The translations under genes were made by a program, and so were the position numbers. This document shows positions 5,358-30,282 of a DNA stretch of 30,920 nucleotides, one piece after another. The first letter of the stretch is position 1, and each line of letters starts with the position of its first letter. The DNA is taken from positions 1 through 30,920 of IMG/VR virus record IMGVR_UViG_3300036715_001255. The stretch is one strand, 5' to 3'. The DNA is from a virus. Under the pieces are notes generated by a model, which was not told the DNA's origin, searched no databases, and saw only the letters and a program-made list of their open reading frames with translations.

Positions 5358-5996
5358 CTAGTTTTTGGGCTTACGTCCCACTTGCCAACCTTCAGGGAGA
5401 GGACAACCTCTAAATAATCGGGCTGTCTCTCCAGTATCGAGGTTGTAGATCCAAGTACAGCCTTGAGCTGTAGTACATGGATAGCTGATCCCTTTGTGGG
5501 CTTCAGACAAATTTCGTTTATGTTCTTCAGAGAAACGCATACCCATCCGTTTCTCTGACTGATTCTTTTTTGACTCTTCGTCCCAGCCTTTGATTTTTTC
5601 GCGTCCAGTTTCCCATCCCTCAGAAATGAATTCCTGAAATTGGTCCTGAGATACCCGTTTATTGATTCCAGTTTTATGCACCCAGAGTGTACCCTTGGCT
5701 GAGGGTGGAAGTGCTGGTTCTCTCTGGATGTTGAAACCTACCTTCTTATCCCAGGAACGCAAGGCTTCAATAAAGTGGCGTTCTCGGTTGAGTAGATCGG
5801 CAGTAACCTCTAGCAGGATGAAGTCAAACGCCTCGGCCCCGTACTTAGTCCAGGCTCTTTGCAGCCGGGTATTGGAGTGTATCCCCTTTCGGAGTTCTAA
5901 GCGATGGGTAGACCATCGCTCTGGGATTTGGCAAGAACTACCAACATACATCTTTCCATTGGGGTTGCACCGGATCAAATAAATTCCACTACTCAA
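5358..5996 (-). CDS. GIY-YIG homing endonuclease with W...G...GR repeats
   Basis: Free-standing homing endonuclease, 212 aa, opposite in strand to its neighbours. GIY (4-6) and YVG (17-19) define the GIY-YIG nuclease core (about 1-90) with the usual following Arg (RWSTH) and Glu (RERHFIE). A NUMOD3-like motif (MRFSEEHKRNLSEAHKG, 153-169) is a known DNA-binding element of such enzymes. Two further modules at about 103-132 (LWVHKTG...SEGWETGR) and 181-208 (WIYNLDTG...PEGWQVGR) match repeats in the HNH endonuclease at 20479-21399. The start is TTG with AGGGGGCGA upstream on the - strand. The gene is AT-richer than its flanks, which suits a mobile gene. Confidence 0.9.
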   Translation of the reverse strand: MSSGIYLIRCNPNGKMYVGSSCQIPERWSTHRLELRKGIHSNTRLQRAWTKYGAEAFDFILLEVTADLLNRERHFIEALRSWDKKVGFNIQREPALPPSAKGTLWVHKTGINKRVSQDQFQEFISEGWETGREKIKGWDEESKKNQSEKRMGMRFSEEHKRNLSEAHKGISYPCTTAQGCTWIYNLDTGETARLFRGCPLPEGWQVGRKPKN

Positions 5997-9074: not shown

Positions 9075-9119
9075 GGGTCCAGGCTGGAGTTACCCGATGG
9101 GCGATTCTGGCCTGGACCC
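9075..9119. terminator. Inverted repeat, possible terminator
   Basis: Ten-base arms GGGTCCAGGC (9075-9084) and GCCTGGACCC (9110-9119) are perfectly complementary across a 25-base loop, six bases after the SSB-like stop. The loop contains a small CCCGATGGG palindrome. There is only a weak T-tract (TCTTGT) on the + strand. It also contains the 3' end and stop of the - strand GIY-YIG gene. It may terminate one or both transcripts, or be an insertion-associated structure. Confidence 0.4.
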
Positions 9120-9893
9120 TCTTGTGCCCAGCCCCAGCCCCAGCCCCTTGAACTTGGCTGCACAGGATTTAGAGCAGAATTGCCGTCCATGGTGCTTCGT
9201 AAGACCACCGCAGTGGATGCAGGTAGGGTAAGGCTTTTTCAGTAGTCGTAACTCCCTTTTTTCTTGCTTGGTAGCTTTTATCCTTTGTATAGTCTCTTCT
9301 GAATGGCTTTTGCCAAAGAAGGGGTTTAGTTCGCCCGTGGTAGCTTTGCTGATTTTTGATCTGGTGGAATCTGAGGATTGCTTACCTTTATTAGGAGCTG
9401 GCCTTCCTTTCAGTCCCTTAGAGATGTTTAGTCGATGTTCTTCAGAGATAGGCACTCCTAGCCGGAGTTTGGACATCTGCTGGCGTCGTTCAATACTGAC
9501 TCCTGCTTCCCGCCCTCTCTGAAGACAATAAGCCGTTGGCTTCTGACCCTTGTTGGCAGCACTGATCTTCTTGCGGGTCTCCTCGGTATGCTTTCCATGC
9601 CTCCCACCTTGGAGCATATTGTAGCCAGCCAAATGATTGCAGGAATCCAGATGAGTTATCCAGTGTTTCTCCCGTTCTGATAGTTCTACCAAAGTACAAA
9701 GCTCTAAGATGTCCATACGGAAATTGGCCTCTCCATCGAGAGTAAAAGCACTTTGTAGGTGCTGGTTCGGGTGATTTCCCTTCCGTAGCTTGTTTAGATG
9801 TTTTCGCCAGCGAGTTACAATATCTTGAGATAGACCAACGTACACTTTACCATTTTTAATGTTTGTGATGCAGTAGATACCTACGGACCTCAT
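9090..9893 (-). CDS. GIY-YIG homing endonuclease with NUMOD3 repeats and zinc finger
   Basis: Free-standing homing nuclease, 267 aa from the ATG at 9893, which has AGAGGAGGGTTC directly upstream on the - strand; the frame extends seven codons further. GIY (5-7) and YVG (18-20) mark the catalytic core (about 1-95), with Arg (TRWRKH) and Glu (SEREKHW) in place. Several NUMOD3-like repeats follow (TEETRKKISAANKG, SEEHRLNISKGLKG, SEETIQRIKATKQ), then a CxxC...CxxxC finger (CIHC / CSKSC). The last ~20 residues (GLGLGLGTRGSRPESPIG) are unlike the family and are encoded antisense to a C-rich stretch that may belong to the interrupted neighbour gene. Markedly more AT-rich than the flanks. Confidence 0.9.
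   Translation of the reverse strand: MRSVGIYCITNIKNGKVYVGLSQDIVTRWRKHLNKLRKGNHPNQHLQSAFTLDGEANFRMDILELCTLVELSEREKHWITHLDSCNHLAGYNMLQGGRHGKHTEETRKKISAANKGQKPTAYCLQRGREAGVSIERRQQMSKLRLGVPISEEHRLNISKGLKGRPAPNKGKQSSDSTRSKISKATTGELNPFFGKSHSEETIQRIKATKQEKRELRLLKKPYPTCIHCGGLTKHHGRQFCSKSCAAKFKGLGLGLGTRGSRPESPIG
9097..9231 (+). other. Possible displaced 5' end of the RuvC-like gene
   Basis: A + strand open frame starts at ATG 9097, with CTGGAG ahead, exactly where a gene following the SSB stop would be expected. It reads MGDSGLDPLVPSPSPSP, then 27 residues that are antisense to the GIY-YIG finger. The RuvC-like gene beyond the homing gene has no ribosome site. One explanation is that the homing gene entered the 5' end of that gene and left its original start here. 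No direct proof; the frame may simply be a shadow. Confidence 0.25.
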
Positions 9894-9922
9894 GAACCCT
9901 CCTCTGATTGGCACTGGATACC

Positions 9923-19889: not shown

Positions 19890-20482
19890 AACTAGACGAT
19901 TACCAAGCACAGATCAGACGCTTCGTCAAGTTGCCCGAAGATAATCCGCTTTTGATGCTGGCCATGGGCGCAGCCGAGGAGGTCGGTGAGTTCGGCCAGA
20001 TCATTTTCAAGAAATGGCGTTACGAGAACAAGACCACCCCGGAGGAGTTCACTGAGGCTGAGGTTGAGAACCTCGTCAAGGAGATGGGGGACCTGCTGTG
20101 GTATGTAGCCGCTACGGCTCATGTCTTTGGTATACCCATGAGCCAAGTGGCCCAGGGAAACGTAGACAAGCTCAGCGCCCGCACCAAGGCCCCAAGTGCG
20201 TTTGGTAGCACAGGGGGTAATTCCAACTCGCACCCTACGCTCAGTCCCCAGCTCATCCTGGATCAGCCCAGCTATGCCCTAGTGCTCTGGGAGACCTGTT
20301 TCGATCAACGAGAGCGTGGAGAGAAGACCATCACGACTACCATGCGACCGCAGTTCATCTTCACTCTAGGTAGTTACGGTCTCTGGGGGCAGGGCCATTC
20401 AAGGGAAGAAGCCGCCCAGGAAATCATCCTACAAGTCCTGGCCTCCAAGCAACCACGCCTATTGGCCCGCCTGGGAGTCTAA
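19886..20482 (+). CDS. MazG-like nucleotide pyrophosphohydrolase (TTG start)
   Basis: Residues 1-105 form the MazG-type four-helix domain: EEVGE (31-35) and KEMGDLLWYVAATAHVFG (65-82) give the EExxE and ExxD metal ligands. NVDKLSART (92-100) is also typical of phage members. It would cleave (d)NTPs to monophosphates, or hydrolyse (p)ppGpp as proposed for some phage MazG proteins. Residues 105-198, after a Ser/Asn linker, are an added domain I do not recognise (LDQPSYALVLWETCFDQRE). The start is TTG in TTGA, overlapping the HD gene stop. Its stop overlaps the stop of the - strand HNH gene. Confidence 0.82.
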   Translation: MKLDDYQAQIRRFVKLPEDNPLLMLAMGAAEEVGEFGQIIFKKWRYENKTTPEEFTEAEVENLVKEMGDLLWYVAATAHVFGIPMSQVAQGNVDKLSARTKAPSAFGSTGGNSNSHPTLSPQLILDQPSYALVLWETCFDQRERGEKTITTTMRPQFIFTLGSYGLWGQGHSREEAAQEIILQVLASKQPRLLARLGV

Positions 20483-21399
20483 CGAACCCTGCGACGGTTG
20501 GAATCCGCCACGGCCTTCTTTTGGGCTTCAGTTAAGGTTCGGCCTTTGGGACAGTGACTCTGGAGTCTTCCAGGGACAAAACCATCAGGGATTGGTTCTC
20601 CAGAATAGACCTGGACAGCCCTCGTGCCGTCGTTATACCACTTCTTCCCAGTTGGGTAAGCCTTGCGGGGCTTGAGTTCCAGCTTGCCTAGAACATAGCC
20701 CACGGGGACCTGGGATGTCAGGGTTTGTCGATTCTCGGCACCGTCGTTACACCAGACATAGCCTGAACGAACCGCCGATTTCGAGTTTTCGGGTAGACGC
20801 CCACGCTGGAATCCTGGCTTGGGATTGGCCTCGAACTCCGCGAGCTTGACTCGTAGCTCTACCAATCCGTTGTTGATGAGTGTAGTATCTTCAGCCTGGG
20901 AGCGGTCTACTTCGCCCATACCTAGTTGGAAACCCTCTGAGGTTGCAGTCTTCAGGTCAGTAGGATCAATGCTCCTCCGCACACCACCCTGGTGGACCCA
21001 TATGTTTCCCTGGGTGTTTGGAGTGGCAAGCCTACCGGATTCGAATCCCATCGGAATGTCGTCGCCCGCCCATAGCAAGGTCTCAGAGATTCCATCGGTG
21101 TACCAAGATGATCCAGATGGACTCCAATTCGTGCCACTCATGAAAAGCCAAGCCATTCGTAGCTTGGCTGAGTGAGGGAAGGCCTCCATGAGAAGTTTAT
21201 GAGCCTTGACATGTTTTGATTCTTGAAGGTAAATCCCATTCCAAGGATGGGTTTTAAGGCAAGAAAACTCAGGAAATAAGCACCGTGGCAAGATATGGTG
21301 TAAATGATCGGCTACAAGTTTCTGTGTGGACAAGTAGTCTAAGTAGATTCGAACTGCCTCGGGTATTCCGCCATTCAAAAGGAGATGTTTTTCATGCAT
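20479..21399 (-). CDS. HNH-type homing endonuclease with five W...G...GRL repeats
   Basis: 306 aa on the - strand, TGGAGGAATAGCATC before the ATG. The nuclease core is near the N-terminus: DHLHHILP (31-38), N54 in HPWNGIYL and HVKAH (63-67) fit a beta-beta-alpha metal HNH site. Five repeats follow at about 98-124, 132-162, 172-202, 214-240 and 252-279, each of the form WYNDG...PIPDGFVPGRL, presumably for DNA recognition. The same module occurs twice in the GIY-YIG enzyme at 5358-5996. The end is basic (SNRRRVR). The gene fits exactly between MazG and the deoxynucleotidase, overlapping both by a few bases. Free-standing; no intron boundaries seen. Confidence 0.82.
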   Translation of the reverse strand: MHEKHLLLNGGIPEAVRIYLDYLSTQKLVADHLHHILPRCLFPEFSCLKTHPWNGIYLQESKHVKAHKLLMEAFPHSAKLRMAWLFMSGTNWSPSGSSWYTDGISETLLWAGDDIPMGFESGRLATPNTQGNIWVHQGGVRRSIDPTDLKTATSEGFQLGMGEVDRSQAEDTTLINNGLVELRVKLAEFEANPKPGFQRGRLPENSKSAVRSGYVWCNDGAENRQTLTSQVPVGYVLGKLELKPRKAYPTGKKWYNDGTRAVQVYSGEPIPDGFVPGRLQSHCPKGRTLTEAQKKAVADSNRRRVR

Positions 21400-25591: not shown

Positions 25592-25780
25592 ATGGCTCAG
25601 TTCAAGGCAACGATACCCGTGGTGGGAGACCTCCAGGCCCTTGAAGCGGCCCTGTTAGACTTAACCCATCGTAAGATCCAAACGAGGCCCGACTACCGGG
25701 TCACCTGGACCGTCGTGGAGTCCTACCGGGATCTCCATATCCACACTCTAGAAACGAAAGAGGTAGTATGCCCTCGCTAA
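25592..25780 (+). CDS. Hypothetical small protein, 62 aa
   Basis: First gene after the terminator, with a strong ribosome site (CCGGGAGGGCTC). A small alpha/beta protein (VGDLQALEAALLDLTHRKIQ; DYRVTWTVVESYRDLHIHTL) of unknown role. Its end overlaps the next small frame by 13 bases. Confidence 0.65.
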   Translation: MAQFKATIPVVGDLQALEAALLDLTHRKIQTRPDYRVTWTVVESYRDLHIHTLETKEVVCPR

Positions 25781-25860
25781 ATACCATGGACACCCTTCGC
25801 TATTGGTGGCTCAACATCCTACTCTGGTGGGACATGAATATGCGAGGCAAGATCGGATGA
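25768..25860 (+). CDS. Possible very small protein, 30 aa
   Basis: A 30-codon frame (MPSLNTMDTLRYWWLNILLW...) with GAGGTAGT ahead of its ATG. Its TGA overlaps the ligase-like start as ATGA (25857-25860). It fills the space between the neighbours and couples them. Trp-rich and hydrophobic, it may be a membrane-associated micropeptide or just a leader frame. Confidence 0.4.
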   Translation: MPSLNTMDTLRYWWLNILLWWDMNMRGKIG

Positions 25861-26645
25861 GCCTGGGTCTGGTCCACAACGAGGTTGAGCTACAGTCTTG
25901 GCTCCGTGAGGTCCTAGTCAAGCATCCGGGGGCTTGGTTCTCTCTGGAGCCTTGGATTGAGGGCCGGGGAGTGGTCTGCACTTACTTAGATCATCGGCTC
26001 AGCGGGTGTATTGCCACCGATAACAACGAGGACCTCACCGGACTCATCCGGGGGGCAATCCCATTAGTATTACCCAAGCAGTATCCTGCTCGTTTTGTAT
26101 CTATGGGACAGTTGTGGCAACGTTCTGACGGACTGCGTTACACCCCATGGGACTGCGAAGGGCTCACCGAAGAGCACCTGTCAAAGGTCCACCGCTCCGC
26201 CCGGTGGAAGACCCACCACATCGACTTCATGCACATCACAGCCGCCCACGCTCAGCCCTTGAGTAGAACTGTACCTGGGGCAGACCTTGTGGTTTCCCTG
26301 GCGTTGCATGTGGCCCAGGTCCGTAGGGAGCGAGATTCTCTGTGGAAGGGTCTAGGTATGCCCACCAAGGGCATCATGGTTAAGGTCGATACCCAGGAAC
26401 ACCGCGAACAGATAGACCAATGGGCCTGCGGGTTCTCCCTGATGGAACAGGCCACCCGGACCCTACTGACGGGGGTGGAGTGGCGCATAGACCGTCATGG
26501 CTACCTAATCCCGTGGGGTATCCTGGAATCTACGATGCTGGCCGGTGTACCTGTGGACCGTGCCCTTCTTGAAGACCTGAACATGGACTTACCCTGCTTG
26601 GTAGGGCTACGCTCTGAGGCGGGACTCCCAATCGCATTTGTATAA
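25857..26645 (+). CDS. NAD+-dependent DNA ligase adenylation/OB-domain homologue, apparently inactive
   Basis: 262 aa from the ATG in ATGA. By eye it aligns with bacterial LigA: WFSLEPWIEGRGVVCTYLD matches the strand carrying motif I (E-x-K-x-DG), IPLVLPKQYPARFVSMGQLW matches the strand before motif III, PTKGIMVKVDTQEHREQI matches motif IV, and TGVEWRIDRHGYLIPWGILE plus STMLAGVPVDRALLED matches the OB fold after motif V. The nucleophilic Lys of motif I is Trp33, the following Asp is Glu35, RGE is MGQ (83-85), and the AFKFP motif V is CGFSL. The NAD-binding Ia domain is absent. So the chain is ligase-derived but should not form ligase-AMP. The rest of LigA lies at 27045-27956. Confidence 0.7.
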   Translation: MSLGLVHNEVELQSWLREVLVKHPGAWFSLEPWIEGRGVVCTYLDHRLSGCIATDNNEDLTGLIRGAIPLVLPKQYPARFVSMGQLWQRSDGLRYTPWDCEGLTEEHLSKVHRSARWKTHHIDFMHITAAHAQPLSRTVPGADLVVSLALHVAQVRRERDSLWKGLGMPTKGIMVKVDTQEHREQIDQWACGFSLMEQATRTLLTGVEWRIDRHGYLIPWGILESTMLAGVPVDRALLEDLNMDLPCLVGLRSEAGLPIAFV

Positions 26646-26655
26646 AGGAGATCTC

Positions 26656-27048
26656 ATGGAAGGTACCAAGATTTACAACCTGATCGAGGCCCGAATCCTG
26701 GCCCTACGGAGTCACCAGAAGGACTATGATTTTCAAGGTCCTCTGGAGATCACCATCAATCTAGGCCGTCGTGCAGGCCACACCACGGCTGGATCTCTGC
26801 TCCTGGAACACCACCAGGACGCTATCATGCTAGTGCAGACCCAGGACCTCAAACAGCGTCTGCGCGGATTTCCATTTTGGGATCGTGTATTGACCTACCA
26901 TGAGGCCCTAGAGCAGTTCCGGGGAAACAAGATGCCAGACCTAGCGGTTATGGATGATTTCTCTATGGCTGTACTGAACTCGGGACTACTAGTGGCCCTG
27001 GGCCGTATGGCCCGAAGGCCCGGGTTTGTCGAAGTGAGGCTAGGATGA
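26656..27048 (+). CDS. Small P-loop NTPase-like protein with His in place of the Walker A Lys
   Basis: 130 aa, AAAGGAGATCTC before ATG 26656. The motif GRRAGHTT (37-44) stands where a Walker A GxxxxGK(S/T) would be, after a strand (EITINLG), but Lys is His42. DLAVMDD (95-101) resembles Walker B. AIMLVQTQDLKQRL is the intervening strand and helix. Only the first part of a P-loop domain fits in this length. It is placed between the two ligase-derived genes and overlaps the second by four bases (ATGA). Reduced or absent ATP hydrolysis is expected. Role unknown. Confidence 0.65.
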   Translation: MEGTKIYNLIEARILALRSHQKDYDFQGPLEITINLGRRAGHTTAGSLLLEHHQDAIMLVQTQDLKQRLRGFPFWDRVLTYHEALEQFRGNKMPDLAVMDDFSMAVLNSGLLVALGRMARRPGFVEVRLG

Positions 27049-27956
27049 TCCCGAAGCCCACCCAGTGCCCCTACTGTGAAGGGCCTGTCGTGCTCATCAA
27101 GGGTAACTTGCAGTGCGAGACCCGTTGGTGCCCTGGTAGGCTTATCGAGGATTTGACCTTCGTTGGTTCCAAAGAAGGTCTAGGCATCGAGGCTCTGGGC
27201 CAGGAGATTGCCCGCAAGCTAGTCCAGGATGGCTACGTCACCACCCTATCGGACTTATTCGAGTTTGGTCAAGAGCTCGCTGACTGGCACCTGAAGGACC
27301 CGGAGAGGTTCAATCAGGTCATGGCCAAGCGCGGCTTCGGATCCGAGGCAGTCAAGCTCTACTTGGGTATCGCTGAGGCCCGTGACTCCCGTGAGTGGGA
27401 GCGTTGGATCGTAGCCCTGAATGTTGAGGGCGTCAGTAAGACCACAGGGAAGCAGATCGCCATGGCCCTTGGGCTCCAGGATCTGGAATCTTTCCCCACT
27501 CGGCTGCTGGAGGTCCCAGGACTCGGGATCGAAGGTCTGGACAAGGCTGCGACTACCAGTATTACGGACTGGGCCCTAGACCTGGAGAACCTGAATCTCT
27601 GCCGGAAGCTCCATGAGACTGGCTGCCGACCCAAGTCCCTGAAGAAGGTGCTGGAGGTCGGAGAGGGCCCCTGTAGTGGTATGATCGTCTGCATCACCGG
27701 AGAGCACCTGGGGATGGAGCGCGATGAGATCCAGGTTCATCTGTCCAAGCTTGGAGCCGTGGTGAAGAGTGGAGTCAGTAAGAAGCTCACTCACCTGATC
27801 GCAGGAGCCGGTGCGGGACCTAGTAAGCTCCAAAAAGCCAGAGAGCTGGGTATCCTAGTGCTTAACACGGAATGGCTCCAGAAAACCCTGACCGAAGCTG
27901 ATATCGACATTGGCGTTGGCAACGGTGGCTTCGAGCTAAACCTAGATGAATTCTGA
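27045..27956 (+). CDS. NAD+-dependent DNA ligase C-terminal part (Zn finger, HhH, BRCT)
   Basis: 303 aa. A four-Cys zinc finger opens the protein (Cys8, Cys11, Cys24, Cys29), followed by helix-hairpin-helix repeats (about 45-200: GLGIEALGQEIARKLVQDGY, LNVEGVSKTTGKQIAMALG, VPGLGIEGLDKAAT). A BRCT domain covers about 208-288 (MIVCITGEHLGMERDEIQVH, then LSKLGAVVKSGVSKKLTHLI, then AGPSKLQKARELGILVLNTE and W). This is the exact C-terminal order of bacterial LigA after the OB fold, in a separate gene starting in ATGA. T5 also splits its ligase into two genes. It would clamp nicked DNA. The acidic tip (ELNLDEF) could dock a partner. Confidence 0.87.
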   Translation: MIPKPTQCPYCEGPVVLIKGNLQCETRWCPGRLIEDLTFVGSKEGLGIEALGQEIARKLVQDGYVTTLSDLFEFGQELADWHLKDPERFNQVMAKRGFGSEAVKLYLGIAEARDSREWERWIVALNVEGVSKTTGKQIAMALGLQDLESFPTRLLEVPGLGIEGLDKAATTSITDWALDLENLNLCRKLHETGCRPKSLKKVLEVGEGPCSGMIVCITGEHLGMERDEIQVHLSKLGAVVKSGVSKKLTHLIAGAGAGPSKLQKARELGILVLNTEWLQKTLTEADIDIGVGNGGFELNLDEF

Positions 27957-29174: not shown

Positions 29175-29621
29175 ATGGATCGCTGGGACGTCATCGGGGC
29201 CAACTTCTCCACTCATAGGCTCCCCGAGGGTAAGTGGGTGTTGTACACGGATGCTTTGATCCTCCAGGAGCGTATTGATACTTTGGCGAAGATCCTTCAA
29301 GACGAAGGTATCCTAGAGGAAGAGCCCACCGTAGACCCTTCTAGTGTCTATAACTCCCTCACTGACTGGCTCACGGATATTGAGACTGCTGTTGTCGAAC
29401 ATGGGTGTACACTGAGTTCCTGCGATAGGCCCATGGAACGATTGATCGGGGCTGAGGCGATTTCGGGTGGTCTGACGATGCACTTCTACCTCCCCTTCGC
29501 CCTGGCTCAATCGGCAGGGCCCTTATTTCGCTCCTCCGCCAATCGTGAGGAGCTTCTGGATCGTCTAGCCCAGGGCCAGAAGCTCTCCAACTATGTGGTA
29601 CAGGTGCTCAATGCAGACTAA
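29175..29621 (+). CDS. Hypothetical protein, 148 aa
   Basis: The ATG at 29175 has CTAGGAG five bases ahead, preferred over an in-frame start at 29154 inside the previous gene. Mostly helical and acidic (LILQERIDTLAKILQDEGIL; SSVYNSLTDWLTDIETAVVE), with two Cys but no motif. It overlaps the RNase HII start by 11 bases. Confidence 0.7.
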   Translation: MDRWDVIGANFSTHRLPEGKWVLYTDALILQERIDTLAKILQDEGILEEEPTVDPSSVYNSLTDWLTDIETAVVEHGCTLSSCDRPMERLIGAEAISGGLTMHFYLPFALAQSAGPLFRSSANREELLDRLAQGQKLSNYVVQVLNAD

Positions 29622-30282
29622 CCTGATTGACTACGACCTCAACCTGATTGCCTCTCATGGTGGTCTGATTGGGCTGGATGAAGTCGGACGAGGTTGTCTC
29701 GCTGGACCTTTGGTGGTCGTGGGGTGCTACCTGGATGCCGATCTGATCGCCAAGCATCGCACGATCCTTCAGGAAGTCAATGACTCCAAGAAGCTCACCG
29801 AGAAGAAGCGTAACCGCCTAGCGGCTTTGCTCACGGCCACTGATATCCCGTTCTGTAACGTGGAGATGCCCGCCGCCCGGGTCGATGCCCTGAACCCGCT
29901 TCAGGCTACCATGAAGGCCATGGAAACGGCCAGCTGGAACCTCGTGCATCGGCAAGAGAACTGGGACGTGCCCATGAAGGTCGGTCTGATCCTGATAGAT
30001 GGTAACCAAGTGCCCAAGGGTGGCAAGGATCTTATAGCTGAAACCCGGGCTGTGGTATCAGGGGATGCTACTAGCTGTGCCATTGCCTGCGCCAGCATCG
30101 TGGCCAAGGCTGATCGAGATGCCTACATGGTACAGCTCGATAAGGCCCATCCCCAGTACGGCTTTGCGAGTCATAAGGGCTACGGGACCAAGGAGCACAA
30201 CAAGGCTGTACTAGCCTGGGGCCCCTGTGTGGAGCACCGTCTTACCTTTAGCGTTGAGGGTCAGAAGATAGCCAATATTTAA
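29611..30282 (+). CDS. rnhB: Ribonuclease HII
   Basis: 223 aa from ATG 29611, overlapping the previous stop. It cuts RNA in RNA/DNA hybrids and at single ribonucleotides. Catalytic residues: LDEVGRG (Asp23, Glu24), NDSKKL (57-62), LIDGN (Asp130) and SGDATS (Asp152), then IACASIVAKADRD, all in the order and spacing of bacterial RNase HII. HPQYGFASHKGYGTKEH is the usual late motif, and the length is typical. In a phage with its own ligase-related proteins it would remove RNA primers or ribonucleotides before nick sealing. Last gene of the unit before the terminator. Confidence 0.94.
   Translation: MQTNLIDYDLNLIASHGGLIGLDEVGRGCLAGPLVVVGCYLDADLIAKHRTILQEVNDSKKLTEKKRNRLAALLTATDIPFCNVEMPAARVDALNPLQATMKAMETASWNLVHRQENWDVPMKVGLILIDGNQVPKGGKDLIAETRAVVSGDATSCAIACASIVAKADRDAYMVQLDKAHPQYGFASHKGYGTKEHNKAVLAWGPCVEHRLTFSVEGQKIANI

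Follow-up and report, generated by a model that had tools for sequence, protein, structure and literature searches.

Two neighbouring open reading frames on a viral metagenomic contig raise the question whether a DNA ligase, divided between two proteins, may lose the chemistry of one half and still be kept as a protein. The sequence analysed, here called the window, is 30,920 nt long (positions 1-30,920 of IMG/VR record IMGVR_UViG_3300036715_001255) and is probably a 30.9 kb part of a roughly 300-kb genome. The original prediction held that the two products, P0001 and P0002, are the halves of a NAD+ ligase, the first of which has lost its nucleophilic lysine, and both frames were found where it had placed them. 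They are reported in Table 1, together with the altered sites and the adjacent genes; corresponding residues are given in the numbering of E. coli LigA (EcLigA).

Table 1. Features of the ligase locus, with positions within the window
Feature	Position	Strand	Basis and remarks
30-codon ORF MPSLNTMDTLRYWWLNILLWWDMNMRGKIG	25768..25860	+	TGA overlaps the P0001 ATG (ATGA)
P0001, 262 aa, NTase/OB half of the split NAD+ ligase	25857..26645	+	tblastn, AlphaFold
Trp33 (TGG) at the motif I nucleophile K115	25953..25955	+	Alignment; L036 codon is AAG (Lys)
Met-Gly-Gln (83-85) at motif III RGE, Gln85 at E173	26103..26111	+	Alignment
Junction of the 39-residue in-frame deletion, Gln88/Arg89	26120..26121	+	Alignment
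Motif IV: Lys171 at D285; Lys176 = K290, kept	26367..26384	+	Alignment
Motif V: Ser194 (TCC) at K314	26436..26438	+	Alignment
OB fold, 7 residues shorter	26460..26642	+	PF03120 match, alignment
P0009, 130 aa, between the ligase halves	26656..27048	+	ORF
P0002, 303 aa, zinc finger, HhH and BRCT half of the NAD+ ligase	27045..27956	+	Profiles
RNase HII	29593..30282	+	PF01351, E 1.7e-35; same syntenic replication/repair block

Homology of the two products

Four zinc-finger cysteines (C8, C11, C24 and C29) and matches to phrog_3869 (E 5.7e-35), to BRCT (E 7.9e-13) and to the LigA NCBIfam model (397-663, E 8e-41) identify P0002 as the zinc finger, HhH and BRCT part of LigA, in agreement with the original prediction. 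P0001, taken alone, gave weak profile matches, limited to its second half. Of the two Pfam profiles proposed for checking it, PF03120 detected it with E 0.004, and PF01653 had no match anywhere in the window; phrog_3869 was matched with E 5e-5. Relatives were hence needed to back the ligase assignment.

Sequence-only scans with P0001 or P0002 detected no relative in IMG/VR or GTDB. The IMG/VR relatives were collected by using hand-designed degenerate DNA patterns, covering THL, WDRW and the OB strand; the WDRW pattern revealed no relative in GTDB contigs. The closest relative is L036 (IMGVR_UViG_3300046479_000008, 63.8 kb), while among isolates Tunturiibacter phage Tunturi_5 comes nearest; this jumbo myovirus, which infects Acidobacteriota from soil, has a genome of 309 kb (PMC11924767).

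In tblastn comparisons against the IMG/VR relatives P0001 was covered in its entirety, with E 7e-47 for L036 and about 1e-17 for L004 and L008, and these full-length matches indicate that its homology to ligases is real and not due to chance. P0002 matches its L036 counterpart with E 1e-82. The two contigs are collinear: most conserved window genes are ordered alike, from the gene at position 78 to the RNase HII gene at 29593, and the collinear set includes the gene directly upstream of the ligase block, so that P0001 stands where the adenylation half of L036 stands. Window and L036 are, in addition, sisters in both the N-half and the C-half tree. On the basis of alignment and gene order, P0001 is orthologous by position to the first half, with adenylation and OB domains, of a split NAD+ ligase; the corresponding L036 half is complete, with the nucleophilic Lys in place. 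P0001 had been described as following the LigA adenylation and OB domains segment by segment. The homology is upheld, the segment-wise correspondence is not, as eight internal deletions (3, 2, 2, 39, 2, 6, 7 and 1 aa, relative to L036) were found and the ends are missing.

A structural model of P0001, obtained by supplying AlphaFold with the protein aligned to 14 relatives, shows a LigA-like NTase-OB fold (pLDDT 81.5, pTM 0.65); since the alignment is made of active ligases, the model is biased towards the ligase fold and depends on homology. The top PDB matches found with it by Foldseek are NAD+ ligases without exception (E about 1e-12). Superposition on LigA, which had been suggested as a check, was obtained by VIA-align with Z 16.0 and 2.6 A over 173 residues for the M. 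tuberculosis enzyme (7k72), and with Z 15.2 over 243 residues for the E. coli enzyme in complex with nicked DNA (2owo).

Division of the ligase gene

The split itself is ordinary in this phage group. One-chain ligases are encoded in L004, L007, L008, L009, L010, L032 and L037, and a gene divided between OB fold and zinc finger is found in the window, L036, Tunturi_5, L005, L011, L039, L041 and L043. The two Tunturi_5 halves, gp116 and gp108, are separated by 3.2 kb, and the gap contains a 294-aa ORF in L036, an opposite-strand GIY-YIG endonuclease with NUMOD3 in L005 and L011 (L005:5802-6506), and an opposite-strand DUF7487 protein in L039 (L039:3973-5001). In L040 a GIY-YIG gene (L040:5870-6595) parts domain Ia from the remainder of the ligase. 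Identity between L005 and L010, where the ligase is unsplit, amounts to 78-91%, which indicates a recent split in L005, coincident with the endonuclease. The arrangement matches the genes in pieces described from phage Aeh1 (nrdA/mobE) and from T4 (gene 60/mobA), where the split enzyme stays active (PMC2988022).

Some further observations concern the inserted genes. In L041 and L043 a glycosyltransferase (L041:5291-6541) lies between the halves and overlaps each neighbour by about one base. Taken as a whole, opposite-strand endonuclease-like genes have repeatedly settled in the ligA gene of these jumbo phages, at the OB/zinc-finger junction and, in one case, between domain Ia and the NTase. 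The window contains three minus-strand endonuclease genes (5358-5996, 9090-9914 and 20479-21399), opposite in strand to its other genes, two of them GIY-YIG, confirmed by Pfam, and one HNH-like, recognized by eye; their GC3 is 0.46-0.53 versus about 0.65 elsewhere, as expected of mobile genes. A group I or group II intron, or any other Rfam element, was also considered as the origin of the split and was discarded, since no Rfam match was found in the window or in the relatives.

No endonuclease is present at the ligase junction of the window, where the gap holds P0009. This protein showed no nuclease profile match and no significant homologue in profile and phage searches (best phage E about 0.5); L036 contains no counterpart, other relatives carry unrelated genes at that position, and no tie between P0009 and the ligase emerged. 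It features a Walker-A-like GRRAGHTT, in which His takes the place of Lys. Its gene is preceded by a strong ribosome-binding site, AAAGGAG, and its stop overlaps the start of P0002 (ATGA). The AlphaFold model of P0009, made without alignment, has a pLDDT of 43.7, too low for use. The analogous ATGA overlap between the 30-codon ORF and P0001 suggests translational coupling; the short ORF is also a possible leader peptide.

Catalytic residues lost and kept

Residues were mapped on a 19-row alignment, in which EcLigA was included. In EcLigA AMP is attached to K115, with E173 holding the ribose and both E113 and K290 in contact with adenine; the NAD+ step requires domain Ia (PMC5052709). The alignment reveals the replacements K115>W, D117>E, R136>T, E173>Q, D285>K and K314>S in P0001. 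The predicted exchange of the motif I lysine for Trp33 is therein confirmed, as is that of RGE for MGQ. Motif I reads EPWIEG, with Glu35 at D117, while Gly36 (G118) and Glu31 (E113) are kept; Thr54 occupies the position of R136. The lysines of motif V had been reported as gone: this is correct for K314, replaced with Ser194, and not for K290 of motif IV, which persists as K176. The largest deletion takes out N185, R200, N201, G205 and R208, and the 'TRGDG' loop is shorter than in the relatives and in EcLigA. An aromatic residue is kept at Y225 (Trp98).

In the OB fold of LigA, R333 and R379 take part in DNA contact or OB stability, and V383 and I384 distort the nick (PMC8123306, PMC3347538). 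Both arginines are kept in P0001 (R213 and R252), while the latter two residues are replaced with Gly256 and Leu257.

Domain Ia was detected by PF22745 in L036, Tunturi_5 and L040, and not in the window. The P0001 frame stays open in the 5' direction as far as a TTG at 25803, and a sensitive tblastn search with the domain Ia of L036 did not find the domain upstream of P0001. The other frames and genes of the window were also searched, by profiles and tblastn, for a concealed domain Ia; none was found, and the possibility was discarded. Because of the absence of domain Ia and of the loss of catalytic residues, NAD+-dependent self-adenylation by P0001 is, judging from its sequence, very unlikely.

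The pattern of kept residues could be read differently. E113, K290 and a stacking Trp98 at Y225 persist, while the nucleophile and the ribose contact do not (roles according to PMC5052709), as might be the case for a reduced nucleotide sensor, binding NAD+, AMP or adenylated DNA. Such a sensor would, however, have to work in spite of the loss of domain Ia, E173, D285, K314 and the R200 segment, and with Trp33 probably occupying part of the phosphate site, and is regarded as highly improbable.

Candidate sealing enzymes

If P0001 is inactive, nicks would have to be sealed by another enzyme, as the original prediction had assumed. This appears plausible, since a small ATP-type ligase is encoded in four of the six large relatives, namely Tunturi_5, where gp61 is annotated as ATP-dependent ligase, and three others, each with a PF01068 protein carrying a KxNG-type motif; the other two have none. 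No ATP-type ligase was found within the window or the L036 contig, both of which are fragments. Host LigA is also available for sealing. As a separate observation, NAD+ ligase and small ATP-type ligase occur together in L052-L055 and in Tunturi_5 (gp61); in a survey of jumbo phages the two types were found in mutually exclusive subsets (PMC7824862).

The RNase HII gene is located 1.6 kb downstream of the ligase genes and, among ten related records, is present only in the window and L036. Processing of RNA primers or ribonucleotides by this enzyme would fit a role in nick processing after primer removal; it is also found in L036, whose ligase looks active. The best PHROG match of the RNase HII is phrog_19422, labelled unknown function.

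Maintenance versus decay of the first half

The loss of catalytic residues could mark a gene on its way out: a second ligase would have made the NAD+ ligase redundant, and the open frame would be a passing state or, in a variant of the same reading, would be kept only for translational coupling, with P0002 persisting for a DNA-binding/BRCT role. Such decay would agree with the strong acceleration of P0001, with its gaps being deletions only, with the second, ATP-type ligase owned by relatives, and with the tight overlap of the operon genes. A number of features speak against it. All gaps between P0001 and L036 are multiples of three, and all are deletions in P0001, L036 having none. The frame is intact and codon use is normal, as had been noted, with GC1/2/3 of 0.65/0.43/0.65, like those of neighbour genes. 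No stop occurs over 259 aligned codons. In neutral simulations at d about 0.64, a clock taken from the former invariant NTase sites, which selection may itself have changed, the mean was 7.4 stops and none of 400 runs was stop-free; at d = 0.3, 0.75% of the runs were. The buried hydrophobic pattern is also preserved: among 57 conserved hydrophobic columns, 49 remain hydrophobic, against a neutral expectation of 34.5 +/- 3.7 at d = 0.64.

The distribution of changes points in the same direction. Near-invariant sites are kept at 8 of 21 positions in the NTase and at 10 of 14 in the OB fold, the latter being better conserved. When codon positions 1 and 2 are compared, 18 differences out of 42 are counted for the formerly invariant NTase sites and 228 out of 518 for the average site: differing as much as the average, these sites have long been free to change, and the multi-nucleotide changes found at them likewise imply that a long time has passed since the loss. 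Branch lengths for the N-half are 1.57 substitutions per site in the window versus 0.28 in L036, for the C-half 0.66 versus 0.48, so that the release is limited to the catalytic half. On these comparisons, made on one sequence, a maintained non-catalytic protein is favoured over decay, which is considered unlikely.

According to the original prediction, Lys at this site in homologues would imply decay or a sequencing error. Half of this is borne out, as Lys was indeed found at the motif I nucleophile in all aligned relatives covering that site; decay and sequencing error are both disfavoured by a loss that affects many sites through multi-nucleotide changes, by deletions that keep the frame, by the lack of stops and by a partner half that shows no acceleration. 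An assembly or sequencing artefact, such as a chimera or an accumulation of errors, might come to mind for a metagenomic contig with one example of the altered N-half, no other dead N-half having been found among the relatives, in collections that may lack records very close to the window. It would have to account for substitutions by the dozen, independent of one another, and for eight deletions in frame, in a gene that is still open, has a normal codon composition and lies in intact synteny, and its probability is negligible.

The normal rate of P0002 could also be explained by a second, intact adenylation half, encoded elsewhere in the genome and pairing with P0002; P0001 would then be a diverged in-place copy, perhaps acting as competitor or regulator. 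Ligase halves do lie kilobases apart in Tunturi_5. Against this, exactly one N-half was found in each large relative searched, including the complete 309-kb genome, and P0001 occupies the orthologous place beside P0002; this arrangement is thought to be quite unlikely.

Proposed role of the split ligase

The preferred interpretation, held with moderate confidence, is that P0001 is a naturally evolved pseudo-ligase subunit, which forms a non-catalytic DNA clamp with P0002. As regards the retention of a ligase-derived protein for a non-catalytic job, the original prediction is sustained by the catalytic loss, the kept frame and the predicted LigA fold, for one contig; the candidate jobs named there are nick sensing, clamp-like binding and blocking of host ligase. 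P0001 and P0002 derive from a jumbo-phage NAD+ ligase, whose gene was divided at the boundary of OB fold and zinc finger, as in L036. In the lineage of the window phage, the N-half then lost domain Ia, and with it NAD+ binding, along with the AMP-transfer site, while keeping an open frame, the OB arginines contacting DNA and, according to the model, the core of the fold. The C-half, evolving at a normal rate, kept zinc finger, HhH and BRCT. The halves would most likely still come together around DNA, nicked or duplex, to form a clamp or scaffold without catalytic activity, which may mark, protect or hand over nicks arising from phage replication or repair, sealing being left to a second phage ligase or to host LigA. 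More tentatively, the pair could be a stable nick-binding clamp, which protects nicks or delivers them to the second ligase, be it a phage ATP-dependent or the host enzyme, and would thereby parallel, in a bacterial virus, the structural role of dead Lig4.

If this interpretation is true, the LigA clamp is useful without chemistry, and the locus offers a natural system for studying what a ligase does at a nick besides sealing it. The relatives provide an evolutionary series: ligases unsplit, split and active, split with an endonuclease in the gap, and split and dead.

Comparison with known systems

T5-type two-gene ligases keep a complete adenylation half. The same division into two proteins is seen in the two-gene phage NAD+ ligases (T5-type; PHROGs 3359 and 3498), of which the heterodimeric enzyme of PR1 phage has been solved (PDB 9hu3 and 9i5i). 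By PDB titles and lengths the adenylation half of the latter is complete, whereas P0001 has 262 aa and appears dead. Tunturi_5 gp116/gp108 and the L036 halves belong to the same lineage as the window pair and share its split, and L036 also its gene order; their adenylation halves are complete and contain the KxDG lysine. LigA itself (E. coli, PDB 2owo and 5tt5) resembles P0001 and P0002 in the NTase-OB order, OB arginines, zinc finger, HhH and BRCT; it differs in being one chain with domain Ia, K115, D117, R136, E173, D285, K314 and R200/R208, all of which are missing from the window pair.

In genes split by homing endonucleases (PMC2988022) a core replication gene is likewise carried in two ORFs, whose products presumably reassemble, as proposed for the window ligase; those cases stay active, and the window junction has no endonuclease now. 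Jumbo phages of subgroup 2.1 offer a further parallel, a ligase DNA-binding domain that stands alone, also ligase-derived and non-catalytic, which has been proposed to recruit host ligase (PMC7824862). That domain is helical and comes from ATP-dependent ligases, while the window encodes a degenerate NAD+ NTase-OB with a C-half partner. Lig4 that has been engineered to lack catalysis still supports end joining, with Lig3 as the sealing enzyme (PMC11754673; PMC10858965); as in the proposed clamp, an inactive ligase has a structural role while another one seals, although the Lig4 in question is an engineered eukaryotic mutant and not a natural pseudoenzyme. No paper on a natural inactive NAD+ ligase or on a heterodimeric phage ligase was found in the open-access literature, which does not prove that there is none. 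Split phage ligases are known to work; what would be new here, on one contig, is that one half of a split NAD+ ligase has become a pseudo-enzyme in nature.
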